IMG/VR virus record: IMGVR_UViG_3300031576_000105
Location: 1-44,773 of that record
Strand: one strand, 5' to 3'
DNA: 44,773 nucleotides
From: a virus
Both the position numbers and the translations under genes were made by a program. Each line of letters opens with the position of its first letter. Positions within the stretch are counted from its first letter, which is position 1. The notes beneath the pieces were generated by a model, which had not been told where the DNA came from, made no database searches, and saw only the letters and a list, made by a program, of their open reading frames with translations. Shown here piece by piece: positions 1,741 to 44,773 of this stretch.

Positions 1741-3690
1741 ATGATAAAGAAATCTATCCGAGATGCTATTGTTAAACAAAGTTTAGATGAAATTGCCTTC
1801 GCAAGACAAGGGAAGCAACCTAAAATACCAAATTGGCATAAAAACGAGGACTTATATTACTCAAGAAAGGCTACTATTCAAGGAGAACGTTCAAATGTAA
1901 ATTTAAACGAAGCTCAGGGATTTGTTACTACATTCTTGACTAAAATAAATTCACCATTTAATTTTAAATATACTAAAGGTGAAGAAGCAGACCTTCAGGC
2001 AGCTAAAATTGCAAATGCCTTAAAAGACCAAGACTATAAAAAGGGTCGTTGGAAGTTTAAAGTTATGTTAGCTCGTATTCAACTTATAATCTACGGAAGA
2101 TATATTTTTGAATATCACGCAGATTCAAAGGGGGGTTATAAATCTTACTTAACCAACGTAGATGTCTACCAATTTTTGATTGACCCCTCTTGTGGTGGAG
2201 AAGATATGGAAAAGGCGTTTTATATGGGACGTGGTGGAATTACAAAATCTAAAAACGAACTAAAAGAAGGAGCTAAGTCAGGTAAGTATTTGAGAGACGA
2301 AGTTAAAGAACTAATTAGTGGCACTGGAAATCTTACAGACGAAACAGAGGAAGACTCAAATGCCAAAAATCGTTGGCACGCCCTTATATCTCAAGTTAGA
2401 GTTTTAATGAAACCAGACCAGTGGAAATTTTGGGAGTGGTATACAACTTATGAGGGAGATAGATATTATGTTCTCTTAACCGAACAGGGCGGAAAAGCCA
2501 TTCGTGTAGAACCCATTGAAGATGTATTTAAAAGTGGACACTATCCCTTCTTTTCAGCTGCAGCCTATCCTGACTTAACTGAATTTTGGACACCAAGTCC
2601 GCTAGACGGAGTTCGTGAAGCTATAATGGCTAAGTCTACATCTATCAACCAAATGTTAGACAACGGAGAGGCAATTAACCGACCAATGAAAGCATTTGAT
2701 GTTGATGCTATTAAAAATCCTGCCCTCTTAAAATATCGTAAGGACGGTTTGATTCCAGTAAAGGGTGGAACGGATATAACTAAGGCTATTCAATTTTATC
2801 CAACAGTCGCTATCACTACAGCTGTTCAGGTATACGAAAAAATGGAAGAAATTATGGGGCTAAACTCAGGAGTAACTGCGGGAACAAAGGGTCAAGCAAC
2901 AGAAATACAAGTTGGAATTTATGAAGGAAACCAAGCTAATATTGACGACAGATTTACTTTGTACTCTGATTCAGAAGCAGATGCACAAGAAAGATTTGCA
3001 GACCTTTATTTGGATGGTCTTGATGAACACCTTAAAACAAAAACAGCCGTAGAAATGATTGGTATAGACGGGGTTAAATTTAAGGAGGTCACTAGAAAAG
3101 ACATCAAGCGTGGTAAAGATTTCAATGTTATGGTAATAACTTCTGGTGCTGAAGAAAGAATGGAAACAGTAGAGAAGAAAAACAAACTCACTTTCTTATC
3201 TTCTAAGTCTGCTGATGTATCTGGTATTTATAACAAAGTAATTCTAGCAGAGATGGAAGCATCTATTGCAGGATTTACAACTGAAGAAATAAAAGCTATG
3301 ACAGATACAAAAAATGATGAAAATGCAGAGTTAATGGCGGAGTGTGCTTCTGATATTCAAAGAATGTTGGGGGGTGAAGTCATTGAGCCAAACGAGCTTG
3401 CTAATACTGCCTACCTACAGAAAATGAGAGATTATATGAAGGATAATTCAGGCTACTTGATGAAACATCCTGATGTTGCGAATTTAATGTTTGCATATAT
3501 GGAATCTTTGAATCCAATAATAATCAGAAATATGATGGAAAAATTGGATGACCAACTAGCGAAAGAAGGACTAATGAGTTCAGTAGCACAGGCAAACGGA
3601 GAAGGAGGTCAAGCAATAGTTCCAGGTGGAGAAGCATCAGACACTAAAGCAGTAGACCAAATGACCATAGCTAATTATGGTAAGGGATAA
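1741..3690 (+). CDS. Portal protein (podovirus-like head-tail connector)
   Basis: The product forms the dodecameric ring at the capsid vertex through which DNA is packaged and ejected. The assignment rests mainly on position directly after terL and before the scaffold and capsid genes, on the length of 649 residues (typical of long podovirus portals), and on a long mostly alpha-helical acidic/basic C-terminus. A central stretch with repeated DP and WEWY-type residues fits a portal core, but no unique motif was identified. It has its own TTGGCA/TATAAT promoter and starts 9 nt after the -10 box, with no SD sequence. It is very likely structural; the portal call is strong by synteny. Confidence 0.8.
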   Translation: MIKKSIRDAIVKQSLDEIAFARQGKQPKIPNWHKNEDLYYSRKATIQGERSNVNLNEAQGFVTTFLTKINSPFNFKYTKGEEADLQAAKIANALKDQDYKKGRWKFKVMLARIQLIIYGRYIFEYHADSKGGYKSYLTNVDVYQFLIDPSCGGEDMEKAFYMGRGGITKSKNELKEGAKSGKYLRDEVKELISGTGNLTDETEEDSNAKNRWHALISQVRVLMKPDQWKFWEWYTTYEGDRYYVLLTEQGGKAIRVEPIEDVFKSGHYPFFSAAAYPDLTEFWTPSPLDGVREAIMAKSTSINQMLDNGEAINRPMKAFDVDAIKNPALLKYRKDGLIPVKGGTDITKAIQFYPTVAITTAVQVYEKMEEIMGLNSGVTAGTKGQATEIQVGIYEGNQANIDDRFTLYSDSEADAQERFADLYLDGLDEHLKTKTAVEMIGIDGVKFKEVTRKDIKRGKDFNVMVITSGAEERMETVEKKNKLTFLSSKSADVSGIYNKVILAEMEASIAGFTTEEIKAMTDTKNDENAELMAECASDIQRMLGGEVIEPNELANTAYLQKMRDYMKDNSGYLMKHPDVANLMFAYMESLNPIIIRNMMEKLDDQLAKEGLMSSVAQANGEGGQAIVPGGEASDTKAVDQMTIANYGKG

Positions 3691-3721
3691 AAGTCGAACA
3701 TTATAAGTTTAATTTAATCAA

Positions 3722-3808
3722 ATGGATGAAGAAAAAAAAGAAGAAAGCGAAGAGATATTAGTCCCATCTGACCCAATGGATGAAATGTTGTGCGAGGGTT
3801 GTCAGTAG
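3722..3808 (+). CDS. Small acidic protein ending in CxxC
   Basis: A 28-codon open frame between the portal and the next late gene. It is rich in Glu and Lys at the start and ends in a CEGCQ-type CxxC. It fills an otherwise empty gap in a tightly packed operon, which is the main reason for calling it. Function unknown; it could also be untranslated leader. Confidence 0.4.
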   Translation: MDEEKKEESEEILVPSDPMDEMLCEGCQ

Positions 3809-3848
3809 ACTTACGTCGAAAGACATTATAAATTAACGGATAAAAATT

Positions 3849-4211
3849 ATGAGTGAACATATAGATATAGTAATACCAAAGTATCAATTTGACCCTTCAG
3901 ATGGTGAAGATATTTCACCAGTTAAAAGAAAGATTCTCAAGACAATGGAGATAACTGAAACTTTTACATTCTGGGATGTTTTAAAATATATTGCCAGTAT
4001 GGATAAGGCTATCGCAGATAAGGAAGCAGAGCTAAAGGGTCTTGTTGAAATGAAGGCAGCTTATATGAAAGAACTTCCTCTTATTGAAGAACAACTTAAC
4101 ATTAGTAATATTGAAGAAGAGTTCCAAAAGGTTTTAGCTGAGGAAAATGCTCTTGCAGAAGCAAGTAAAGTTGCAGAAACAAATGGCGGGGAAAAGAAAG
4201 AAGATAATTAA
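3849..4211 (+). CDS. Hypothetical late protein, coiled-coil
   Basis: 120 residues, not recognised as a known family. The middle (about residues 50-100) is a charged helical stretch with heptad-like Leu/Ile spacing, compatible with a coiled coil. It lies between portal and scaffold, where podoviruses often carry small head-assembly or chaperone-like genes. Its 3' end overlaps the next gene by 29 nt, suggesting coupled translation in the late operon. Confidence 0.65.
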   Translation: MSEHIDIVIPKYQFDPSDGEDISPVKRKILKTMEITETFTFWDVLKYIASMDKAIADKEAELKGLVEMKAAYMKELPLIEEQLNISNIEEEFQKVLAEENALAEASKVAETNGGEKKEDN

Positions 4212-4536
4212 AGAGATTAAGGATGCACTCCCAGATTTAAAGTCTGAGAAGGTTGAAGACATATCTGAAGAATTAGAGAGAGTTCTTGCTATTAAAAGAC
4301 TTTTTAAATCTGAGGGTGGTGAACAGTTAATTCAACTTCTAAGAAATCATTGTGCAAATAATCTTAGAAGATTAGTAACTATGGCTCGTGAAAAGCCAGA
4401 GTTAAATTCTCTGTTGTCAATTATCTTTGAATATTCTTCTAATTTAGAGTTACTAAAAACCGTAGGAGACTTAAGTTTAGAAGAAGAATTAAGAGAGCAG
4501 TTAGATGAGGCGGTGAAAGAAGCTATGAATGGGTAG
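4183..4536 (+). CDS. Hypothetical late protein, helical
   Basis: 117 residues from the ATG at 4183 (MAGKRKK), chosen because it gives a typical basic N-terminus. An in-frame ATG at 4147 is also possible. The protein is predominantly helical with many Leu and Glu residues and no recognised motif. It is the last gene before a pair of hairpins and a free-standing HNH gene. Probably part of head assembly by context only. Confidence 0.6.
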   Translation: MAGKRKKIIKEIKDALPDLKSEKVEDISEELERVLAIKRLFKSEGGEQLIQLLRNHCANNLRRLVTMAREKPELNSLLSIIFEYSSNLELLKTVGDLSLEEELREQLDEAVKEAMNG

Positions 4537-17562: not shown

Positions 17563-18633
17563 ATGCCACCCAAAGAAACAATAGAACAAGAAGAATTAGA
17601 ACCTATATTAGAGGCTTCTTTGAAGGTGAATAAGGAAGGACACGAAAATACGGGTCAGCTTCTTGAAAATATTATTCAACAAAATGATGCTAATAACCCT
17701 GAACCACTTTTGGAAGCAGGTATAGAGCAATCTAAAAAGAATACTGATAAAATTGTGGGTGCTGTTGAGAATTTAAATAAAAAACTAGAACCACAAGAAC
17801 TTGGTGATGGTAAAACTTTTATTGTCAAAGGAACAAAAGGAGACAAGGGTGATAAGGGAGAGAAGGGTGATGGGGGCGACAAGGGAGACAAAGGAGATTC
17901 TATCAAGGGAGATATTGGTATTCAGGGTGAAAAAGGTGATAAAGGAGAGACTGGTATCCAGGGTAAGAAGGGTGATGCTGGTTCAGATGGAGTAGACGGA
18001 AAAGATGGTAAAAATGGCGAAAAGGGCGATAAAGGAGAATCAGGAAAAGACGGAAAAAGTATTTCGGAAGAACTTGTTAAAAAATATGAAAAGAAAGTTA
18101 AAGATACACAGGAAAATTTACTTTGGGTAAATAATGGTGCTGTAAAGTCAGTTATAGCTGGTTCAAATATAACAGTAACTGGTGACCCACAAAATCCAAT
18201 TATATCTTCTACTGGTGGGGGTGGAGGTCATACCATAGAAGACGAGGGCACTCCATTCACTCAGAGAACTAAACTTAATTTTGTGGGTGCGGGGGTAACT
18301 GTAACTGATGATGTAGGTGATGATGCAACTGTAGTTACTATTCCGTCAGGAGGTTCAGGAATCACAAGAACTATTGTTACAACTTCAGGTAGTATAACAT
18401 TGGGTTCTGCTGCTCTTACCGATTATGTTTATTTGGTTGCTGGTTTACATACTATGAGTATGCCCGCTGCTGCTGGAAATACAAATAGATATACAGTAAA
18501 AAATAATCACTCTGTTGCGATTACGGTTGATACTGCTGGTGCAGAAAACATTGAAGGTGCTGCAAGTATAAGCGTGCAACCTGAAGATTCGGTAGATATT
18601 ATTAGCGACCTAACAAATTGGTATATTATATAA
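17563..18633 (+). CDS. Collagen-like tail fibre protein
   Basis: 356 residues in three parts: a helical N-terminus (about 1-85), a collagen-like region with uninterrupted Gly-X-Y triplets of the GDKGEKG type (about 88-165), and a beta-rich Gly/Thr C-terminal region (about 190-356) that resembles a fibre knob. Collagen-like triplets in phage fibres form trimeric rods. The gene sits in the fibre cluster with its own promoter. Function in adsorption is inferred. Confidence 0.8.
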   Translation: MPPKETIEQEELEPILEASLKVNKEGHENTGQLLENIIQQNDANNPEPLLEAGIEQSKKNTDKIVGAVENLNKKLEPQELGDGKTFIVKGTKGDKGDKGEKGDGGDKGDKGDSIKGDIGIQGEKGDKGETGIQGKKGDAGSDGVDGKDGKNGEKGDKGESGKDGKSISEELVKKYEKKVKDTQENLLWVNNGAVKSVIAGSNITVTGDPQNPIISSTGGGGGHTIEDEGTPFTQRTKLNFVGAGVTVTDDVGDDATVVTIPSGGSGITRTIVTTSGSITLGSAALTDYVYLVAGLHTMSMPAAAGNTNRYTVKNNHSVAITVDTAGAENIEGAASISVQPEDSVDIISDLTNWYII

Positions 18634-29374: not shown

Positions 29375-29547
29375 TTTTTTACTTGTTCTTTTTGCCATTT
29401 TTTATATTCCTTGAGAGGGAAACCCTCAAGTTTGATTAAATCTTGATTAACTTTTAATGCTTGAGCCAGTTTTGTCATATCATCAAATAAATCAAATTGA
29501 TTAACTAACTTTCTTAGTTTATCTTTTCTTTTTTGGTAATTTGTCAT
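29371..29547 (-). CDS. Small helical protein
   Basis: 58 residues, almost wholly helical and charged (MTNYQKRKDKL start), ending in TGA that overlaps the next ATG. It overlaps the upstream pyrophosphohydrolase-like gene by 29 nt. No motif recognised. Confidence 0.55.
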   Translation of the reverse strand: MTNYQKRKDKLRKLVNQFDLFDDMTKLAQALKVNQDLIKLEGFPLKEYKKWQKEQVKK

Positions 29548-29998
29548 TGTGTGTTTTTATCGCCCTTACGAAATCTTGTGCTTGCTGGTGTTGTTTATGG
29601 AATGGCATATCCCATAATTCAAATCGCATAGTTTCTTCGAAGTGCATTATTGCTAAAGCGTTCCAGGCAACGGCTGCTAAGTGGTCTTCTTCGATGTCTC
29701 CCATACCATATTGAAAGACGTGTCTCATTAACGAAGCATAGCATCTTGAAATAGGAATACCTTTCTCCCAGTTTCTTTCGTCATACTTAATTGCACCACG
29801 AGTATATAAATCTGCAACCCTTTTGAGTGCAAGTGGCGGAATTAAATCAAATCTTGACTTATCTTCGTGAGTATCACGAACCGCACCCGAACCGAACTTC
29901 TCACGTTTACCACTATCCTTAGTGAAGAACTCTGAATCACCCCTTACAAATAATCCTAAGTCCCTTTCTTCTTTTTCTGTTTTTTGTTTATTCGTCAT
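29519..29998 (-). CDS. dATP/dGTP diphosphohydrolase-like (MazG-superfamily-like) protein
   Basis: 159 residues. The central part has TRGAIKYDERNWEKG (67-80) and EDHLAAVAWNALAIMHFEE (104-122), the hallmark pattern of the phage family annotated as dATP/dGTP diphosphohydrolase N-terminal domain (DUF5664-type). Members are all-alpha and are linked to dNTP pool control, in some phages to base-modified genomes. No partner enzymes for a modified base are visible here. Likely cytoplasmic nucleotide hydrolysis during early infection. Confidence 0.75.
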   Translation of the reverse strand: MTNKQKTEKEERDLGLFVRGDSEFFTKDSGKREKFGSGAVRDTHEDKSRFDLIPPLALKRVADLYTRGAIKYDERNWEKGIPISRCYASLMRHVFQYGMGDIEEDHLAAVAWNALAIMHFEETMRFELWDMPFHKQHQQAQDFVRAIKTHNDKLPKKKR

Positions 29999-33034: not shown

Positions 33035-33040
33035 CTTTTG

Positions 33041-33114
33041 TGCCTCAGAGGAGAGTCGAACTCCTAAAATTTAGTTTCTAAAACTAACACGGTTACCAAT
33101 TACGTCACCGAGGC
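33041..33114 (-). tRNA. tRNA-Leu(UAG), short variable arm
   Basis: Acceptor GCCTCGG pairs with CTGAGGC. Anticodon loop TTTAGAA, T-arm AGGAG-TTCGACT-CTCCT. The variable region is only 5 nt, although bacterial leucine tRNAs normally have a long arm. Reads CUN if U34 superwobbles. Confidence 0.85.
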
Positions 33115-33148
33115 GTATTTCAGTTATCCTGTTTTCCCAGATAACTGA

Positions 33149-33231
33149 TGGCGGAAAGTCAAGGAATCGAACCTTGTTGGGTTTTACCCCACTGTTTTCA
33201 AGACAGTTAGTCACCATTGACCATACAATCC
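33149..33231 (-). tRNA. tRNA-Ser(UGA), long variable arm, CCA encoded
   Basis: Loop CTTGAAA gives UGA, with T-arm CAAGG-TTCGATT-CCTTG and a 14-nt variable arm with GGG/CCC pairing. Acceptor GGATTGT with ACTTTCC has two central U-U mismatches. Discriminator G and the CCA end are encoded. Confidence 0.82.
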
Positions 33232-33235
33232 ATTG

Positions 33236-33318
33236 CGGTAGGACTAGGATTTGCACCCAGAAGACTTTTACATCCGACAGTTTAGCGAACTGCTCGTTTA
33301 CTGTTCACGCACCCTACC
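33236..33318 (-). tRNA. tRNA-Ser(GCU), long variable arm
   Basis: Acceptor GGTAGGG/TCCTACC, discriminator G, 16-nt variable arm. Anticodon loop TCGCTAA has C instead of U at position 33, and the T-loop TGCAAAT lacks the TTC start. Reads AGY. Confidence 0.8.
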
Positions 33319-33403
33319 TGGTGCTGATTGTGAGAGTCGCACTCACGGCATCCGAAGACAACTGCTTTACAGGCAGTCTCCGCCCTCTACGGAATATGTC
33401 AGC
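33319..33403 (-). tRNA. tRNA-Tyr(GUA), long variable arm, CCA encoded
   Basis: Loop CTGTAAA gives GUA, with the long variable arm typical of bacterial Tyr and T-arm GTGAG-TGCGACT-CTCAC. Acceptor GCTGACA/AATCAGC is mismatched in its two inner pairs. Discriminator A followed by encoded CCA. Confidence 0.82.
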
Positions 33404-33407
33404 ATTG

Positions 33408-33478
33408 TGAATCCTGAAAGACTTGAACTTTCATAGACCGAGTAAGAGTCGGCTATTCTGCCATTGAATTAAGGATTC
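33408..33478 (-). tRNA. tRNA-Lys(CUU)
   Basis: Perfect acceptor GAATCCT/AGGATTC, loop CTCTTAC, T-arm GAAAG-TTCAAGT-CTTTC. The anticodon stem is 4 bp plus one mismatch. Reads AAG. Confidence 0.85.
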
Positions 33479-33479
33479 G

Positions 33480-33550
33480 TACGAGATAAGGGAATCGAAC
33501 CCCTGCCCGTGAGATGTAAGCTCACCGTTCTACCATTATACTAATCTCGT
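33480..33550 (-). tRNA. tRNA-Val(UAC)
   Basis: Acceptor ACGAGAT/ATCTCGT, loop CTTACAT, stem GTGAG/CTCAC, T-loop TTCGATT. The only Val tRNA, so U34 would have to read all GUN codons. Confidence 0.9.
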
Positions 33551-33554
33551 TTAT

Positions 33555-33573
33555 TCGTATCAAAATGATACGA
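33555..33573. promoter_or_regulatory. Intercistronic hairpin in tRNA array
   Basis: CGTATC and GATACG pair around AAAAT. Lies between Val and Arg tRNAs and could mark a processing point. Confidence 0.5.
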
Positions 33574-33576
33574 TTG

Positions 33577-33648
33577 TGAAAAGTATAGGATTCGAACCTA
33601 TATCTGAGACGTTAGAACCGTCCCGCACTTCCATTGTGCTAACTTTCC
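33577..33648 (-). tRNA. tRNA-Arg(UCU)
   Basis: Acceptor GGAAAGT/ACTTTTC, loop GTTCTAA, T-arm ATAGG-TTCGAAT-CCTAT. The anticodon stem has one mismatch. Reads AGA and probably AGG. Confidence 0.85.
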
Positions 33649-33649
33649 G

Positions 33650-33720
33650 TAGCCGATATGGGTAATGCTCCCATTTTCTTTGCTTGAAGGGCAAACGTCC
33701 TACTTTTAGACGAATCAGCC
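33650..33720 (-). tRNA. tRNA-Glu(UUC)
   Basis: Acceptor GGCTGAT/ATCGGCT with wobble pairs, D-arm of the Glu type (TTCGTCTA). Loop CCTTCAA has C at position 33. T-loop AGCATTA is non-canonical. Confidence 0.82.
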
Positions 33721-33721
33721 G

Positions 33722-33792
33722 TAAGGTTAGTGGGTACTGCCCCCACATCTCTTGCTTGAGAAGCAAGCGAACTACTACTATTCGATAACCTC
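33722..33792 (-). tRNA. tRNA-Glu(CUC)
   Basis: Acceptor GAGGTTA/TAACCTT, loop TTCTCAA, perfect CTTGC/GCAAG stem, T-arm GTGGG-GGCAGTA-CCCAC with a non-canonical loop. Reads GAG. Confidence 0.83.
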
Positions 33793-33793
33793 G

Positions 33794-33864
33794 TCCATAA
33801 TGATGGAATCGAACCACCGTAACTAAAGTATCAGTTTAGTATTCTTCCATTAAATTAATTATGG
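33794..33864 (-). tRNA. tRNA-Ile(GAU)
   Basis: Perfect acceptor CCATAAT/ATTATGG, loop CTGATAC, stem CTAAA/TTTAG, T-loop TTCGATT. Reads AUY. Confidence 0.9.
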
Positions 33865-33865
33865 G

Positions 33866-33936
33866 TAGGAATGGAGGGTAATGCTCCCCCGTCCGAGAGG
33901 TATAAGCTCTCCGTTCTGCTTTTAAACTACATTCCT
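33866..33936 (-). tRNA. tRNA-Ile(UAU)
   Basis: Acceptor AGGAATG/CATTCCT, loop CTTATAC, stem GAGAG/CTCTC, T-loop AGCATTA (non-canonical). UAU reads AUA directly, avoiding the lysidine modification needed by CAU-type Ile tRNAs. Confidence 0.85.
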
Positions 33937-33940
33937 AATG

Positions 33941-34014
33941 TCGGTATAGCTGGAGTTGAACCAGCACTTTATGATTTTTGAAATCATTGTGTCTACCAGT
34001 TGCACCATATACCG
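33941..34014 (-). tRNA. tRNA-Leu(CAA), short variable arm
   Basis: Perfect acceptor CGGTATA/TATACCG, loop TTCAAAA, T-arm GCTGG-TTCAACT-CCAGC. The D-arm carries GGTAGACAC as in leucine tRNAs, but the variable region is only 5 nt. Reads UUG. Confidence 0.85.
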
Positions 34015-34018
34015 ATTG

Positions 34019-34091
34019 TCCGCCTAGCTAGATTCGAACTAGCACTTGAGTGGTTTTAAATCACTTGCCTCTACCGTTGGGCTAAAGGCGG
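34019..34091 (-). tRNA. tRNA-Leu(UAA), short variable arm
   Basis: Acceptor CCGCCTT/TAGGCGG with one mismatch, loop TTTAAAA, T-arm GCTAG-TTCGAAT-CTAGC, variable region of 5 nt. Its 5' end lies 2 nt from the RNase P RNA 3' end. Reads UUR. Confidence 0.85.
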
Positions 34092-34093
34092 AT

Positions 34094-34337
34094 ATTGTGT
34101 CTATAAGCGGGATTCTGTTTTAGACGAAATTTACCTTGATTTAATGTCGCCATTAAATTCTTTGCAGTTCTCCAGTTTCCTGGCACGACTTTGCACTCTC
34201 GTAAATATTTTGCCGTTTCACCCGAACTAAATCGGTTCGTCACTGTTCGCAATTCGCATCTTACGATGGACAGGTGTTACCTGCTACGAAATTGAGTGTC
34301 CCGACTTTCCTCTCCGTGAAGTATCGTCCGACACAAT
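34094..34337 (-). ncRNA. rnpB: RNase P RNA (phage-encoded, compact type A-like)
   Basis: A 244-nt catalytic RNA that removes 5' leaders from tRNA precursors together with a protein subunit, here presumably the host's. Conserved regions are clear in order: GAGAGGAAAGTCGGGAC (CR I), AGCAGGTAACACCTG, GGGTGAAACGGC (CR II-III), AAGGTAAAT (the L15 GGU that binds tRNA CCA) and ACAGAATCCCGCTTATAG (CR V). P1 is a perfect 8-bp ATTGTGTC/GACACAAT; P2 is GACGA/TCGTC. In P4, CGGGA pairs with TCCCG where E. coli has CCGGG/CCCGG, a compensatory change that argues for selection. It is about 130 nt shorter than the E. coli RNA. It sits 1-2 nt from the flanking tRNAs, so RNase P cleavage of tRNA-Leu would release its own 3' end. 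Confidence 0.94.
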
Positions 34338-34338
34338 G

Positions 34339-34412
34339 TGCTATGACGTGGAGTTGAACCACAACCTTCTGTTTTTCAGACAGATGTGCAGATACCGCTA
34401 CACCATCAGAGC
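34339..34412 (-). tRNA. tRNA-Phe(GAA)
   Basis: Acceptor GCTCTGA/TCATAGC with one mismatch, loop CTGAAAA, stem TCTGT/ACAGA, T-loop TTCAACT. Lies 1 nt upstream (in transcription) of the RNase P RNA. Confidence 0.87.
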
Positions 34413-34416
34413 ATTG

Positions 34417-34488
34417 AGCTATATAGTGGAATCGAACCACTCCGTGTCCGCTTTGCAGGCGGATGCCTTACCATTTGGCTAATATAGC
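34417..34488 (-). tRNA. tRNA-Cys(GCA)
   Basis: Perfect acceptor GCTATAT/ATATAGC, loop CTGCAAA, stem TCCGC/GCGGA, T-loop TTCGATT. The discriminator is U, as required for CysRS. Confidence 0.92.
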
Positions 34489-34537
34489 AATCAGGGTTTT
34501 TTTCACGATTGTAAAAACACGCCTGCAAAAAACGCTG

Positions 34538-34608
34538 AGCCTCATCTGTGAATCGAACACAGGTAGATAGTTTACAAAACTATTGTTCTGCCACTGAACT
34601 AACAAGGC
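34538..34608 (-). tRNA. tRNA-Thr(UGU)
   Basis: Acceptor GCCTTGT/ATGAGGC, loop TTTGTAA, stem ATAGT/ACTAT, T-loop TTCGATT. The only Thr tRNA of the set. About 50 nt without features separate it from the Cys gene. Confidence 0.88.
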
Positions 34609-34609
34609 G

Positions 34610-34679
34610 TTGCGGGTACGAGTTTCGCACTCATCTATCAGGCTTATGAGACCCAATTCATCACTAGATGAAACCCACA
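34610..34679 (-). tRNA. tRNA-Met(CAU), atypical
   Basis: Acceptor TGTGGGT/ACCCGCA, loop CTCATAA (canonical Met). The anticodon stem is made of weak wobble pairs, the D-arm is very short (CATC/GATG) with no GG, and the T-loop is TGCGAAA. The first pair is U-A, unlike typical initiator tRNA. It is the only CAU gene found. Confidence 0.72.
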
Positions 34680-34681
34680 GG

Positions 34682-34752
34682 TGAATCTGAATGGAATCGA
34701 ACCATTGTGGACTGTTTAAAAGACAGCTATAATACCATTATATTACAGATTC
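34682..34752 (-). tRNA. tRNA-Lys(UUU)
   Basis: Perfect acceptor GAATCTG/CAGATTC, loop CTTTTAA, T-arm AATGG-TTCGATT-CCATT. One mismatch in the anticodon stem. Confidence 0.87.
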
Positions 34753-34778
34753 AAAACATAAATTGTCAAAGAAACTTG

Positions 34779-34851
34779 GGTGTTATGAGAGATTCGAACT
34801 CTCGATAATTCCTTCACAGGGAACTGTGTTACCAACTACACCAATATCACC
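34779..34851 (-). tRNA. tRNA-His(GUG)
   Basis: Acceptor GTGATAT/ATAACAC with one mismatch, loop CTGTGAA, T-loop TTCGAAT. An extra G at position -1 faces C73, the His identity pair. Confidence 0.9.
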
Positions 34852-34867
34852 ATATTAATTTCTTTCT

Positions 34868-34940
34868 ATACGCCATAGACATTCTTTCGAACGAAGGTGG
34901 TTGGCGAGACCATTCCATTAACTACTTCATCCCGTAACAG
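34868..34940 (-). pseudogene. Degenerate tRNA-like element (CGC in loop)
   Basis: GGT-CTCGCCA-ACC resembles an anticodon arm (CGC, Ala-type) and TTCGAAA a T-loop, but the T stem is only 3 bp and no acceptor stem longer than 4 bp forms. Either a decayed tRNA gene or a tRNA with an unusual fold. Edges are approximate. Confidence 0.35.
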
Positions 34941-34953
34941 GACTTTTCATCTG

Positions 34954-35024
34954 CGACTCTACCGAGAATTGCACTCGGACTCCTTCCGTGACAGGGAAGC
35001 GTGATTCTATTTCACCATAAAGTC
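34954..35024 (-). tRNA. tRNA-Asp(GUC)
   Basis: Acceptor GACTTTA/TAGAGTC, loop CTGTCAC, stem CTTCC/GGAAG, discriminator G as expected for Asp. T-loop TGCAATT is non-canonical. Confidence 0.88.
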
Positions 35025-35028
35025 ATTG

Positions 35029-35099
35029 CTCATCGGCTTGGAATCGAACCAAGATTTAATGATTAACAGTCAATCGTAATACCATTATACCACTGATGA
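35029..35099 (-). tRNA. tRNA-Asn(GUU)
   Basis: Acceptor TCATCAG/CCGATGA (6 of 7 pairs), loop CTGTTAA, discriminator G as expected for Asn, T-arm CTTGG-TTCGATT-CCAAG. One mismatch in the anticodon stem. Confidence 0.86.
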
Positions 35100-35104
35100 G
35101 TATT

Positions 35105-35122
35105 CTGGGGTATACACCCCAG
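35105..35122. promoter_or_regulatory. Strong intercistronic hairpin
   Basis: CTGGGGT and ACCCCAG pair around a 4-nt loop. No T-run on the transcribed strand, so a processing or stabilising element is more likely than a terminator. Confidence 0.55.
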
Positions 35123-35124
35123 TG

Positions 35125-35196
35125 TGAGCCGAGAAGGAGTCGAACCTTCATTTAATAGTTTCGAAGACTATTGTACTTCCTTTATACTATCAGCCC
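35125..35196 (-). tRNA. tRNA-Arg(UCG)
   Basis: Acceptor GGGCTGA/TCGGCTC, loop CTTCGAA, stem ATAGT/ACTAT, T-loop TTCGACT. A UCG anticodon (not the usual A/inosine-34 ACG) would read CGN by superwobble. Confidence 0.88.
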
Positions 35197-35197
35197 G

Positions 35198-35269
35198 TTC
35201 GGGAAATTGGATTCGAACCGCATATTTCTTGGTTCAGAGCCAAGCGTACTACCATTATACGATTCCCGA
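35198..35269 (-). tRNA. tRNA-Gln(CUG), weak T stem
   Basis: Perfect acceptor TCGGGAA/TTCCCGA, loop CTCTGAA, stem CTTGG/CCAAG. The T stem keeps only two pairs around TTCGAAT, so it may be partly decayed. Confidence 0.78.
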
Positions 35270-35292
35270 ATATTATCGCTATTACTAGCTTG

Positions 35293-35363
35293 TTGCGAAA
35301 TTTGGACTCGAACCAAAATTAAATGTTTCAAAGACATTCTTCCTACCCTTAGAAGACTTCGCA
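35293..35363 (-). tRNA. tRNA-Gln(UUG)
   Basis: Acceptor TGCGAAG/TTTCGCA, loop CTTTGAA, stem AATGT/ACATT, T-arm TTTGG-TTCGAGT-CCAAA. Confidence 0.88.
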
Positions 35364-35379
35364 ATATTTAAAAGAACAG

Positions 35380-35450
35380 TCAAGATAGGGGGATTCGAAC
35401 CCTCGCAACAAAGTCCCAAACTTTGCGTGCTACCACTACACTATATCCTG
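35380..35450 (-). tRNA. tRNA-Pro(UGG)
   Basis: Acceptor CAGGATA/TATCTTG, loop TTTGGGA, stem CAAAG/CTTTG, T-loop TTCGAAT. The only Pro tRNA. A short T-arm-like fragment at 35451-35478 next to it may be a remnant of another tRNA. Confidence 0.88.
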
Positions 35451-35478
35451 TGATGGGCGGAATTGCATCCGACCCTTG

Positions 35479-35550
35479 TGCAACGCTTGGGACTTGAACC
35501 CAACTTCTCTGCTTGGAAGGCAGACGTGTCGCCATCTACACTTGCGATGC
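35479..35550 (-). tRNA. tRNA-Gly(UCC)
   Basis: Acceptor GCATCGC/GCGTTGC (one mismatch), loop CTTCCAA, stem TCTGC/GCAGA, T-arm TTGGG-TTCAAGT-CCCAA. The only Gly tRNA, so UCC must read GGN. Confidence 0.87.
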
Positions 35551-35556
35551 TTTCAT

Positions 35557-35645
35557 CCGATGGTCTACAGTTTTGCTAGACAGTTCCCCGTCGGAAACTA
35601 TCCGTGAATCACTTGACCGTGAGGGGAGTTTCCTCCCACCATCGG
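35557..35645 (-). ncRNA. Five-helix tRNA-like RNA with UCA in a loop
   Basis: 89 nt that fold as a class II cloverleaf: closing stem CCGATGG/CCATCGG, GGGAG-GAAA-CTCCC (D-arm position), TCAC-GGTCAA-GTGA (anticodon position), CGGA-TAGTT-TCCG (variable arm) and GTCTA/TAGAC (T-arm position). Compared with real tRNAs, the anticodon loop has 6 nt and the T-loop is not of TTC type. The short D loop and long variable arm recall tRNA-Sec, but U33 is missing. Could also be an unrelated structured RNA. Confidence 0.5.
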
Positions 35646-35649
35646 AATG

Positions 35650-35718
35650 CAAGCTCATACAGAATCGAACTGTATCATAGGCGTTTGGAGTGCCTTTTGC
35701 TACCATAGCATTGAACTT
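35650..35718 (-). tRNA. tRNA-Trp(CCA)
   Basis: Perfect acceptor AAGTTCA/TGAGCTT, loop CTCCAAA, discriminator G as expected for Trp, T-arm TACAG-TTCGATT-CTGTA. Very short D-arm (GCTA-TGG-TAGC). Its 5' end overlaps the HNH stop codon by 2 nt. Confidence 0.85.
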
Positions 35719-38347: not shown

Positions 38348-38863
38348 ATGAGAAATCTTACCACACCAGATATTGAAGAGTTCCTCTTAGAATCAAATGC
38401 CATTGAAGGAGTTTTTGATGATGACTCTTATGAACAAGCCTTGATTGCTTGGAATTGGCTTTCAGAGCAAAGAGAAATGAGTGCTCACGTTATGTTAAAA
38501 ACACACAAGATTCTTATGTTGCATCAAAACTTATATCCTAATGAAAAGGGTTATTTTAGGAATGTTCCTGTGTGGATTGGTGGGAGAGAAGGTATAGATA
38601 GTAGCAAAATAGCACCCGCTATTAAACACCTTTGTATGAATATCAACGATATAATAGATAATGGTAAAAAAGAAAGTGAGATTTTCCTCAATAAAATAAC
38701 AAAAGAACACCACGTTGAGTATGAGAAGATACATCCTTTTGTGGATGGTAATGGTAGAACAGGTAGAATGTTTATGAATTGGGAGAGGCTAAAAGTCGGG
38801 CTTCCTCTGTTGATTATTCACGCTGGGGATGAACAGCAAGAATATTATAAATGGTTTATATGA
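38348..38863 (+). CDS. fic: Fic family protein with N-terminal inhibitory motif
   Basis: 171 residues. The full catalytic motif HPFVDGNGRTGR (129-140) is present, with His129 as the expected base. SNAIEG (16-21) fits the inhibitory S/TxxxE(G/N) motif of class II Fic proteins. Fic enzymes modify proteins, mostly by AMPylation, sometimes by phosphorylation of EF-Tu. Self-inhibition would control activity without a separate antitoxin. Neighbouring TGA/ATG overlap supports the reading frame. The target is unknown; interference with host translation is one inference given the tRNA set. Confidence 0.9.
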   Translation: MRNLTTPDIEEFLLESNAIEGVFDDDSYEQALIAWNWLSEQREMSAHVMLKTHKILMLHQNLYPNEKGYFRNVPVWIGGREGIDSSKIAPAIKHLCMNINDIIDNGKKESEIFLNKITKEHHVEYEKIHPFVDGNGRTGRMFMNWERLKVGLPLLIIHAGDEQQEYYKWFI

Positions 38864-38967
38864 TAGAATTTAAAAAAGCTAAATGTAAATCTAGTTATTG
38901 TGGCACGGCAGGAGCATATTGTGATTGTAAGCCCAAAACTAAAACTATAAATGGAAGAAAAAAATGA
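38860..38967 (+). CDS. Small Cys-rich peptide
   Basis: 35 residues with three closely spaced cysteines in a CGTAGAYCDC segment and a Lys-rich tail. Its start overlaps the fic stop and its TGA overlaps the next ATG, both as ATGA, which is strong evidence for translation. No family recognised; it may bind zinc or act as a Fic partner. Confidence 0.6.
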   Translation: MIEFKKAKCKSSYCGTAGAYCDCKPKTKTINGRKK

Positions 38968-39311
38968 TTAAACTACAATTTTCAGCTTTAATAGACGGTA
39001 TAAACGCAAAGAAAGATAGGACTTTAGCGATAAAACTTGGCACACAAGAATTATCATCTGAAGAATCTTCTCATCTCTTTGATTTAATGGGCAAACAACT
39101 TTGGGTCGGTATAGCTGAAACTCCTATTGAGATATTAGATGTTCCTGAAACTTTACCAGAGATGCACGGAGATAAAACTCCTGGTCAAAGATTGCGTGGC
39201 TTGTTATATGTCTTATGGGAGAATAAGACAGATAAAAAGAGAACATTCCCACAGTTTTATGAAGATTATATGTTTAAATTATGTGAGCAATTAAAAGCTA
39301 AATTAGAATAA
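38964..39311 (+). CDS. Hypothetical early protein
   Basis: 115 residues, mixed alpha/beta (MIKLQFSALIDGINAKKDRT start), with a helical C-terminus. Resembles conserved phage proteins of unknown function found near recombination genes, but no motif decides. Linked by an ATGA overlap to the preceding peptide. Confidence 0.6.
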   Translation: MIKLQFSALIDGINAKKDRTLAIKLGTQELSSEESSHLFDLMGKQLWVGIAETPIEILDVPETLPEMHGDKTPGQRLRGLLYVLWENKTDKKRTFPQFYEDYMFKLCEQLKAKLE

Positions 39312-40930: not shown

Positions 40931-42196
40931 ATGGAAGAAAAAATATACTGTGAGAAATGTAAAAAAGAAATTAAGTCGGATGATGTGTATGAGAATAATG
41001 ACGGGTTGAAGTATTGCGGTGATTGTTATGATGAGTTGTTTTATGAGTGTCATGATTGTAATGAGGAAACTAGCACAGACGAACGGAATATATGCTATGA
41101 TGATTATAGTGTGTGCGACACTTGCAGAGATGATTATAGTTATTGCGAGAATTGCGGTTGTTATGTAAATAGTGATGATTATGCTGGGGATGGTTTGTGT
41201 AATAGTTGCCACGATAATGATGATAATGAGGATAGTGATAGTGGGGGCGAAAGACATTATGACAAAGGTAATACATATTGTAGTGAAAAGGGTCGGGCGT
41301 ATGCGGTAGAGATTGAAACTAACTATGACGAAACAGACGACAGACGGCATTTATTTAATTTGCCGTATGAGGTCGGGATAACTGATGACGGGTCGCTGGG
41401 GTCGCACGGGGTAGAATTGCAGACACCGAAATTAAGTGGGGTCAAGGGTGATGAGTTGCTTAAAAAAATATGTAAGCACTTAAACGATAATAACTTTTCT
41501 GTTGATAGACAATGCGGATTACATATACATATAGACACAGCAGATTTTTTTGAGGTGGACGATAGATACATAAGAGAAAATCATTATTCTAGTGATACAC
41601 CAGAAAAAGAGTTGTTGCTATATCAAAAGCGAGACAGGGAGCAGAAAATAGTCAATCGTATAAAAACACTGATGCTATTCTATATTGCTTTTGAGCCAGT
41701 TATTTATTCTTTTATGCCTATGGCACGCAGAACGAACCGATACTGCTATCCGCTATCAGAGTTTTATCACGAAAGCGAGATAACGAACGCAGACAGCTTG
41801 GAGGATTTAGAGACGATTTGGTATAGAGAGCAGAGCAAAGAAAAAAAAGCCGATAGGAAAAAAGAAAAGTATGATGAGACAAGATATGCTGGTTATAATT
41901 TTCATTGTATGTTGTCCGCTAAACATATTGAGAGCAGACATCATAGCGGAACGCTGGACTATAACAAAATGAAAAACTGGACTGAGTTAAACATCACCAT
42001 ATTAGATAATGTTATAGGTGAAAGAGTAAAAATGTCGGAATTAAAAATAATTAAACACGCTATTGATATATCACAAAAAACTAAACTTTTCTTTGATATG
42101 ATTGGAGTAAATAAAAAACTTCAGGCATATTTTCTAGCAAGGCAGAAAAAGTTTTGTGCTGGGTCAATCGCTAAACAAAACAAATGTGCGGAATAA
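40931..42196 (+). CDS. Zinc-finger amidoligase (COOH-NH2 ligase)
   Basis: 421 residues. Residues 7-93 hold repeated CxxC pairs resembling a LIM/RING-like zinc region. The second part is an amidoligase of the glutamine-synthetase-like fold: AVEIET (125-130), DDGSLG...GVELQTP (152-166), CGLHIHID (195-202), and a late HIESRHHSGTLDY. These enzymes join a carboxyl to an amine with ATP, making amide or isopeptide bonds. The start of the next gene, a glutamine amidotransferase, overlaps its stop, so glutamine-derived ammonia is the likely amine. Substrate unknown; comparative genomics has predicted such pairs to make modified peptides or cell-surface molecules. Confidence 0.84.
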   Translation: MEEKIYCEKCKKEIKSDDVYENNDGLKYCGDCYDELFYECHDCNEETSTDERNICYDDYSVCDTCRDDYSYCENCGCYVNSDDYAGDGLCNSCHDNDDNEDSDSGGERHYDKGNTYCSEKGRAYAVEIETNYDETDDRRHLFNLPYEVGITDDGSLGSHGVELQTPKLSGVKGDELLKKICKHLNDNNFSVDRQCGLHIHIDTADFFEVDDRYIRENHYSSDTPEKELLLYQKRDREQKIVNRIKTLMLFYIAFEPVIYSFMPMARRTNRYCYPLSEFYHESEITNADSLEDLETIWYREQSKEKKADRKKEKYDETRYAGYNFHCMLSAKHIESRHHSGTLDYNKMKNWTELNITILDNVIGERVKMSELKIIKHAIDISQKTKLFFDMIGVNKKLQAYFLARQKKFCAGSIAKQNKCAE

Positions 42197-43269
42197 TACA
42201 TTGTAAAAGAAAAGACGGGAAACTTGCGAACAAGCCGATATTAAAAAGGTTTGAGAAGCAAAAGAGCAGGGGCACAGAAGGCTTTGGTTTTATTGAGATA
42301 AATGACGGCATTGTCGGGGCGGAGATTAGAACACGGACAGAAAAAGAAATAAAAGAAAAGCTGGCACAATCCACAGCAACGGAGATAATGTTTCATCACC
42401 GAACGCCAACATCCACGCCTAACTTTATTGAAGCAACGCATCCGATAAAAGTTTCACATAAAAGTTTGATATATGACTACTATGTTATGCACAATGGGAT
42501 TATCAGTAATGATGATAAATTGCGAGATAAACACTTGGATAATGGTTTTATCTACACCACAGAGATTGTGAAGAAATGGATAACAAGCGGTAAGACATAT
42601 ATTGATAAGATGTGGAATGACAGCGAAGCACTAGCGATTGACTTTTGCCTAGCGATTGAGAAAGGCACAGAGATAACAGCAGAGGGCAGTATTGCTATGG
42701 TTGCCTTGCAGTTTTCTAAAAAGAACAGAAAGGCAGTCGCACTATTCTTTTGTAGGAACGCTGGCAATCCGTTGAAAGTTGAGGACGGAAAAGATTTTTT
42801 CTGTATATCCAGCGAGTCGGGAAAAGAAATACCGAAAGACACACTATACAGATTAGATTATGTAAAAGGCGAATTGCGATATGAGAAAAAGACAATCGGA
42901 AAGTTTATCTATGATTATGAGACGGGCTACGGATATAATGGTTATGCTGGTAGTTATAATTATATGGATTATGAAAATGATACTCCATATACACGCTGGG
43001 ACAAAAAAGGAAAGCCGAACGGGGAGGATGACTTTGATATGGAACTATGGGAGGAACGGCAGTTATTAGAAGATGATATGAGAGTGGCGGAAATGAACGG
43101 GGACTATGACGCTATGACGGATTTAGCAGTCAAGATTGAAGAGATTGATTTAGAGATAGCGGGGATTGATAGTGATGATATGGCGGAGGCAGAGGCAATG
43201 GAGGGTGATATTGAAAAGCTAGGGGTCGGGCATCATATAAACAAGAAAGCACAAAAACTGGGCTTTTAG
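42184..43269 (+). CDS. Class II glutamine amidotransferase
   Basis: 361 residues beginning MCGII, so Cys2 becomes the N-terminal nucleophile once Met is removed, as in GlmS or PurF-type Ntn hydrolases. Supporting motifs are FHHRTPTSTP (near 70-79) and MHNGIISND (near 101-109), plus a Gly/Glu-rich C-terminal region. It would release ammonia from glutamine for the overlapping amidoligase. The C-terminal 150 residues, with many Tyr, Asp and Glu, are not assigned. Start overlap of 13 nt indicates coupled translation. Confidence 0.87.
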   Translation: MCGIIHCKRKDGKLANKPILKRFEKQKSRGTEGFGFIEINDGIVGAEIRTRTEKEIKEKLAQSTATEIMFHHRTPTSTPNFIEATHPIKVSHKSLIYDYYVMHNGIISNDDKLRDKHLDNGFIYTTEIVKKWITSGKTYIDKMWNDSEALAIDFCLAIEKGTEITAEGSIAMVALQFSKKNRKAVALFFCRNAGNPLKVEDGKDFFCISSESGKEIPKDTLYRLDYVKGELRYEKKTIGKFIYDYETGYGYNGYAGSYNYMDYENDTPYTRWDKKGKPNGEDDFDMELWEERQLLEDDMRVAEMNGDYDAMTDLAVKIEEIDLEIAGIDSDDMAEAEAMEGDIEKLGVGHHINKKAQKLGF

Positions 43270-44646: not shown

Positions 44647-44773
44647 ATATAAGGGGCTAGTCCGCTTGTCAGCAGACGAGCTACAAGGCTCATAGCAGAG
44701 AGCATTTTCAAAAGAGATACATAGAGGCACTATGCACGAATAAACACTATGGCGAAGAAGATAGCGGGTAAAA
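44647..44773. repeat. Terminal direct repeat, right copy (circular assembly overlap)
   Basis: Identical to bases 1-127, as described for the left copy. Trimming one copy leaves a 44,646-base circle. Confidence 0.95.

Follow-up and report, generated by a model that had tools for sequence, protein, structure and literature searches.

The locus considered here raises the question of whether two overlapping genes, one for an amidoligase with an N-terminal array of CxxC pairs and the other for a class II glutamine amidotransferase (GAT), code for a single enzyme, and what such an enzyme would modify. The pair sits near the right end of the window, by which we mean the entire stretch analysed, namely, the whole IMG/VR record IMGVR_UViG_3300031576_000105 (44,773 bases, 38% GC, see Table 1). 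Because the record has a direct terminal repeat of 127 bases, it is probably a complete phage genome, and it codes for terminase, portal, head and tail genes as well as for 21 tRNAs, the latter in a dense array. A gene in the structural region contains collagen-like triple-helix repeats, a Fic/DOC family protein is encoded 2 kb upstream of the pair, and elsewhere there is a dATP/dGTP diphosphohydrolase N-terminal domain, which we take to be of the type known from phages whose DNA has 2-aminoadenine in place of adenine. When 24.8 kb of the window were compared with phages by megablast, zero matches were returned, and promoter and terminator scans of the window gave results at chance level.

Table 1. 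Coordinates of the features discussed, in the window unless a locus is named
Feature	Position	Strand	Evidence or detail
Direct terminal repeat, 127 bases	1-127 and 44647-44773		
Collagen-like repeats in structural-region gene	17563-18633		PF01391
dATP/dGTP diphosphohydrolase N-terminal domain	29519-29998	minus	PF18909
21-tRNA gene array	33040-35718	minus	
Fic/DOC family protein	38348-38863		PF02661, E 2.5e-12
Small protein with a relative in the L012 record	38964-39311		E 3e-12
Zinc-module amidoligase gene, 421 aa	40931-42196	+	ORF, Pfam (PF12224), AlphaFold2 model, fold
Six CxxC pairs, residues 7-93, in three four-Cys modules	40949-41209	+	
Linker, residues 98-119	41222-41287	+	pLDDT <50
Amidoligase catalytic domain, residues 120-412	41288-42166	+	Conserved columns, VIA-align match
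Catalytic-domain motifs			E127-x-E129, D153-G-S155, C195-G-x-H198-x-H200, R266, E334-x-R336
CGLHIHID motif, residues 195-202	41513-41536	+	
Overlap of ligase and GAT genes, 13 nt	42184-42196		GAT start, ligase stop
Class II GAT gene, 361 aa	42184-43269	+	ORF, iterated profile, model fold
Ntn glutaminase domain, residues 1-244	42184-42915	+	C2, H71-x-R73, H103-N104-G105, D146-S147
GAT C-terminal helical region, residues 286-358	43039-43257	+	Helices in model
ORF with clear hydrophobic helix, 47 aa	43355-43498		
Tandem ligase-GAT pairs, L118	3862-8591		
Tandem ligase-GAT pairs, L127	3881-8309		
Protein of about 100 aa, example from L014	2784-3116		
GAT-like 'hypothetical protein', L010 (MW202733.1)	3488-4402		
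GAT start region, L012	2640-2800		No ATG/GTG/TTG at MCG-like start

The product of the first gene matches the Amidoligase_2 profile (PF12224) with an E-value of 3e-22 and a score of 80.1 bits, well above the cut-off of 22, and it bears the CGLHIHID motif, in agreement with the original prediction of a zinc-finger amidoligase carrying it. Ten residues of the catalytic domain (E127, E129, D153, C195, G196, H198, H200, R266, E334 and R336) are invariant in an alignment of 32 sequences, the columns of the catalytic motifs are also invariant in a 12-sequence alignment, and G154 is conserved at a level of at least 90%. Their roles are presumably those of the corresponding residues in glutamine synthetase (GS). 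The AlphaFold2 model, based on the alignment of 32 sequences, has a mean pLDDT of 86.1, with high confidence for residues 1-90, lower confidence for residues 91-97, and a linker that is probably disordered. When compared by VIA-align, residues 120-420 match YbdK, GshA, GS and Dop at Z 11-13, and Foldseek likewise returned a GS/GCS-type fold (GS, YbdK and GshA; best match E 1.2e-4), while a sequence search of the PDB with the ligase gave no match. Dop, a member of the Pup ligase/depupylase group, has the GS-type fold in common with the ligase at a Z of about 11; a Pup-like carrier was not found in the window, to which the small protein of the four-gene form described below gave no match. We therefore predict, from sequence and model, that the protein is an ATP-dependent ligase of the Amidoligase_2 type.

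The ligase shares its profile score, catalytic motifs and GS/GCS fold with the Amidoligase_2 proteins of other phages, but differs from them by the N-terminus with its six CxxC pairs, which start at residues 7, 29, 40, 62, 72 and 90; the seven phage relatives first compared have no CxxC pair. All 12 cysteines are invariant among 12 proteins, the other 11 of which have 24-30% identity to the window ligase, and in the 32-protein alignment six of them are invariant and the other six at least 90% conserved. Since the pairs are conserved in relatives, they are not a chance occurrence, and the 12 conserved cysteines suggest that the modules bind zinc. The region is modelled at high pLDDT with short strands and helices. 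Every Pfam row for it is below cut-off, the best being DZR (18.3 versus 27.3), and the structure search, whose matches mainly cover residues 56-421, yielded no fold for the zinc part. The LIM consensus is C-x2-C-x16-23-H-x2-C-x2-C-x2-C-x16-21-C-x2-C/H/D. The earlier description of this region as LIM-like applies loosely, as the spacers between the modules are 7 and 6 residues long versus 2 in the LIM pattern, and its description as unusual has to be given up, as it is conserved and recurs in many other phages within its own subfamily. A viral protein annotated as 'LIM domain containing protein' (A0A6J7X2B6, uncultured Caudovirales phage, BFVD), known to us from the structure search only, matches the zinc-ligase model with an E-value of 2.5e-11 over 443 alignment columns; thus, zinc-type ligases may already be in databases. 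Among the literature matches listed, no title or abstract opening dealt with a zinc-fused amidoligase, and Iyer et al. 2009 may already describe such proteins.

The second gene codes for a protein beginning with MCGI, i.e., with a cysteine directly behind the initiator methionine. Its score against the Pfam family GATase_6 (PF13522) is 19.7 bits, under the cut-off of 27, so that it is divergent (the GAT of the relative L118 scores 27.1 bits). As this value is sub-cut-off, Pfam alone is insufficient, and the identity of the protein rests on an iterated profile and on its fold. The profile, started from the relative L013, reaches the window GAT with an E-value of 3.8e-19, and the AlphaFold2 model (35 sequences, mean pLDDT 86.8) matches the glutaminase domain of GlmS (1xff) in Foldseek with an E-value of 2.3e-10 and a TMt of 0.73, and also the glutaminase domains of PurF and EgtC. 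Furthermore, C2, R73, N104, G105, D146 and other catalytic residues of the family are invariant in 35 aligned sequences; by analogy with GlmS, the Arg, the Asn-Gly and the Asp presumably belong to the glutamine site. Fold and invariant residues thus agree with the overlapping class II GAT of the original prediction, and neither a loss of catalytic residues nor an unrelated fold, either of which would have spoken against it, was found in the ligase or the GAT by conservation, Foldseek and VIA-align. Early alignments had placed a Thr, or D119, in the column of the glutamine-binding Asp, as if this residue were lost, an idea that was dropped when, with L118 and L127 added, the DSE motif aligned at D146 behind an insertion. 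This insertion is common to the window GAT, L118 and L127 and distinguishes them from GlmS and PurF, with which the window GAT shares the Ntn fold and the conserved catalytic residues, but from which it also differs in being a separate subunit, with about 15% identity. In many relatives, CxxC pairs are found where the window GAT has its C-terminal helices. In searches with single sequences, tblastn against phages found nothing with the GAT of the window or that of L118, phmmer from the window GAT alone recovered only copies of itself, the PDB gave only weak matches to its sequence (best E 0.11), and scans of viral contigs with single window proteins yielded nothing, so alignment queries were needed.

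We gathered relatives by the catalytic domain alone (80 loci kept of 499 confirmed), by a zinc-type alignment (78 loci of 317 confirmed, plus 32 loci from genomes), and by GATs (25 loci). Ligases were clustered at 80% identity, a same-strand GAT within 1 kb was counted as a partner, and a ligase with four or more N-terminal CxxC pairs was called zinc-type; loci retrieved through the GAT or the zinc region were excluded, and one locus may yield two ligases. Under these definitions, a GAT lies beside the zinc-type ligase in 54 of 55 clusters, including that of the window, and the 55th is at a contig edge. For zinc-free ligases the figure is 14 of the 84 clusters with enough flank, 15 more being at an edge and uncounted, and among ligases with one to three CxxC pairs one has a GAT and one is at an edge. 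As the zinc-type alignment was built from GAT-bearing loci, these counts may favour such loci; in the least biased subset (catalytic-domain scan and phage hits), a GAT accompanies 10 of 11 zinc-type ligases, the 11th being at an edge, and 5 of 45 zinc-free ones, with 8 more at an edge. Fisher's exact test of the association gives 1.4e-25 when kinship is ignored. On a FastTree tree of 145 ligases, however, the zinc label changes 10 times and the GAT label 7 times, and only five independent pairs fall on supported branches, too few for a sign test to reach significance. Since the labels cluster on the tree, the association, strong in these sequences, appears to be largely inherited, and the zinc-free clusters that also have a GAT indicate that zinc modules are unnecessary for having one. 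No ligase-GAT fusion was present among the ORFs examined. Three zinc-ligase/GAT pairs (L194, L195 and L196) lie on contigs of Candidatus Omnitrophica genomes, and a 'hypothetical protein' following a zinc-type amidoligase in MW202733.1 is GAT-like. In L012, the GAT frame has a CTG preceding the Cys codon at its MCG-like start, and a short, stop-terminated MCGLF frame is located just upstream of the GAT start in another frame.

Two-gene forms of the locus were found at 27 loci including the window. Clustering their neighbouring ORFs of at least 80 aa by BLAST, we found the ligase family in 27, the GAT family in 22 and the next family in 5 loci. A relative of the window terminase (TerL) is present in one of the seven carrier records tested, and none was detected in the other six at the sensitivity of the search. 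As there is no further widely shared gene and most of the carriers tested showed no related terminase, the ligase/GAT unit looks like a mobile two-gene cassette. Moreover, by score the ligases of L172 and L095 resemble the window ligase nearly as closely as do the L118 and L127 ligases, whereas the GATs of L172 and L095 score about ten times lower against the window GAT than the GATs of the other two loci. This suggests an exchange of the GAT while the pairing was kept. Over 80 pairs, the similarities of ligase and GAT to those of the window are uncorrelated (Spearman 0.09), and divergent alignments add noise to such comparisons. The proposal that neighbouring small membrane genes act as partners found no support, as only one of the nine neighbouring ORFs, with no relative in the fetched loci, has a clear hydrophobic helix, and no neighbour of at least 80 aa is widely shared; the sole match among the nine window neighbours tested is a small protein with a relative in the record of L012. 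With no third gene common to many of the two-gene forms at the ORF length considered, an adjacent dedicated peptide substrate is unlikely.

More elaborate arrangements exist among the relatives. The closest ones, L118 and L127, whose GATs have 36-40% identity to that of the window, carry two tandem ligase-GAT pairs, the first ligase being zinc-free and the second zinc-type. The four-gene form consists of ligase A, a GAT, a protein of about 100 aa and zinc-ligase B, and the records concerned often encode a GGACT cyclotransferase at another position. The protein of about 100 aa lies between the GAT and the zinc-ligase in 27 other loci (some of which share a contig), has a conserved hydrophobic C-terminus and a weak, below-cut-off match to DUF5312, and many of these loci also hold a second, longer ligase before the GAT. 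We rejected it as a partner of the window pair, as it has no match in the window or in the 27 two-gene loci. Of 41 zinc-type records, 22 have a GGACT (PF06094) homologue: among the 20 with the four-gene form there are 15, and among the remaining 21 there are 7. In a zinc-free comparison set, from which the zinc-type L050 was left out, 18 of 41 records have one; the window has no such match. The COOH-NH2 ligase family PF14395 is not matched in the window, and none of the 41 records exceeds its cut-off. The carriage of GGACT is a hint that some members of the zinc-type family may engage in gamma-glutamyl chemistry, which counts against the formation of a carboxamide.

On balance, we lean slightly towards the reading that the pair forms a two-subunit, glutamine- and ATP-dependent carboxamide synthetase on a mobile phage cassette, as the conserved sequences and the models suggest. 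After removal of the methionine, Cys2 of the GAT would hydrolyse glutamine and free ammonia, as expected from its conserved residues and fold. The GS/GCS-fold ligase, with Mg-ATP, would then convert a carboxylate to an acyl phosphate, and attack by the ammonia would give a carboxamide, which is what its family and fold point to. The three zinc modules on their flexible tether may serve as a docking site for the GAT or keep a macromolecular substrate in place; their one tested correlate is the presence of a GAT. The tight pairing with a dedicated GAT favours ammonia over an amino acid as the nucleophile, and hence a carboxamide as the product. Consequently, where amide or peptide bonds had both been envisaged, the amide bond is retained and the peptide bond is disfavoured by the pairing. 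Since no substrate gene accompanies the two-gene pairs as far as tested, the substrate would be host-encoded, probably a host component such as a protein or a cell-envelope carboxylate.

A narrower version of the carboxamide synthetase, in which the pair amidates or caps carboxylates of host peptidoglycan peptides or precursors and thereby alters adsorption or superinfection, is a special case of this explanation and the published guess for phage amidoligases. In their available parts, PMC10580990, on OM43 phages with amidoligase and GATase genes, and PMC11318856 repeat this suggestion for phiEco32, both citing Iyer 2009, and the chemistry fits. However, neither protein matches a wall-binding or anchoring family in a family profile search, and it is not apparent what the zinc region would contribute to such a reaction, so we regard the cell wall as a possible but unlikely target. 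The nitrogen metabolism of the host could instead be addressed, with the pair shifting the glutamine/glutamate or ammonia pool, as the available part of PMC10945688 proposes for a planctomycete phage that encodes an amidoligase, a GAT, a glutathione synthase and a GGCT. The effect given there is at the level of whole-phage addition, and bulk metabolism is not what one would expect of a ligase with conserved zinc modules and a dedicated partner, which makes an auxiliary metabolic role very improbable in our view.

The ligase might also form a peptide or isopeptide bond, with a peptide or small protein as its target as in RiPP-like or pupylation-like pathways, and with the GAT acting separately. 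The protein with the conserved C-terminus in all 27 loci of the four-gene type, the presence of Dop among the fold matches, and the frequency of GGACT homologues in the four-gene records are all in line with such a ligase, but the small protein has no match in the window and the other two-gene loci, no peptide gene is shared beside the latter, and the GAT would be superfluous; we consider this distinctly improbable. Finally, ligase and GAT could be neighbours merely by common descent and act independently, as the clustering on the tree and the small number of independent pairs would allow. This is hardly credible to us, as the two genes stay linked where the ligases have 24-30% identity and where the GATs are highly dissimilar, and most of the carrier phages showed no related terminase.

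Phage amidoligases have been catalogued for years, and as phage amidoligase/GAT pairs have been described before, the pair as such is of a known kind. In the LUZ24-like phage UFV-P2, genes for an ATP-grasp protein, a COOH-NH2 ligase and a GGCT accompany those for the amidoligase and the GAT (PMC3890496, available part), and, as far as described there, its cluster has an amidoligase and a class II GAT close by on one strand like the window. The window differs from the LUZ24/phiEco32-type cluster in having no match to COOH-NH2 ligase or GGACT, and it has no match to the single ATP-grasp protein used as a query for this LUZ24-type feature. The OM43 phages, compared by their partial description, likewise have ligase and GATase in one phage, and in Arthrobacter phage Ottawa the two genes are adjacent on one strand as in the window, but the ligase gene is shorter (975 bases). 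In the parts available, PMC3485107 names an amidoligase next to an AIG2/GGCT gene, and in PMC7824862, PMC12419801 and PMC8939145 amidoligases appear only in citing the 2009 paper. No demonstrated substrate of any phage amidoligase was found in these partly available sources.

What we add here is that ligases with zinc modules make up a subfamily that is conserved, recurs and nearly always has a GAT as its partner. We further speculate that the zinc-ligase/GAT cassette may be widely used by phages to amidate a host protein or other macromolecule with nitrogen from glutamine, a system of which the four-gene form would be an elaboration, with the small protein as carrier or substrate and the cyclotransferase removing gamma-glutamyl groups, a proposal that we consider rather improbable in its entirety. 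The four-gene relatives would nevertheless supply a candidate small-protein substrate. The compact, zinc-tethered two-gene form, found in phages with unlike terminases, is small enough to be expressed and would allow direct tests of glutaminase activity, of the dependence on ammonia and of the substrate.
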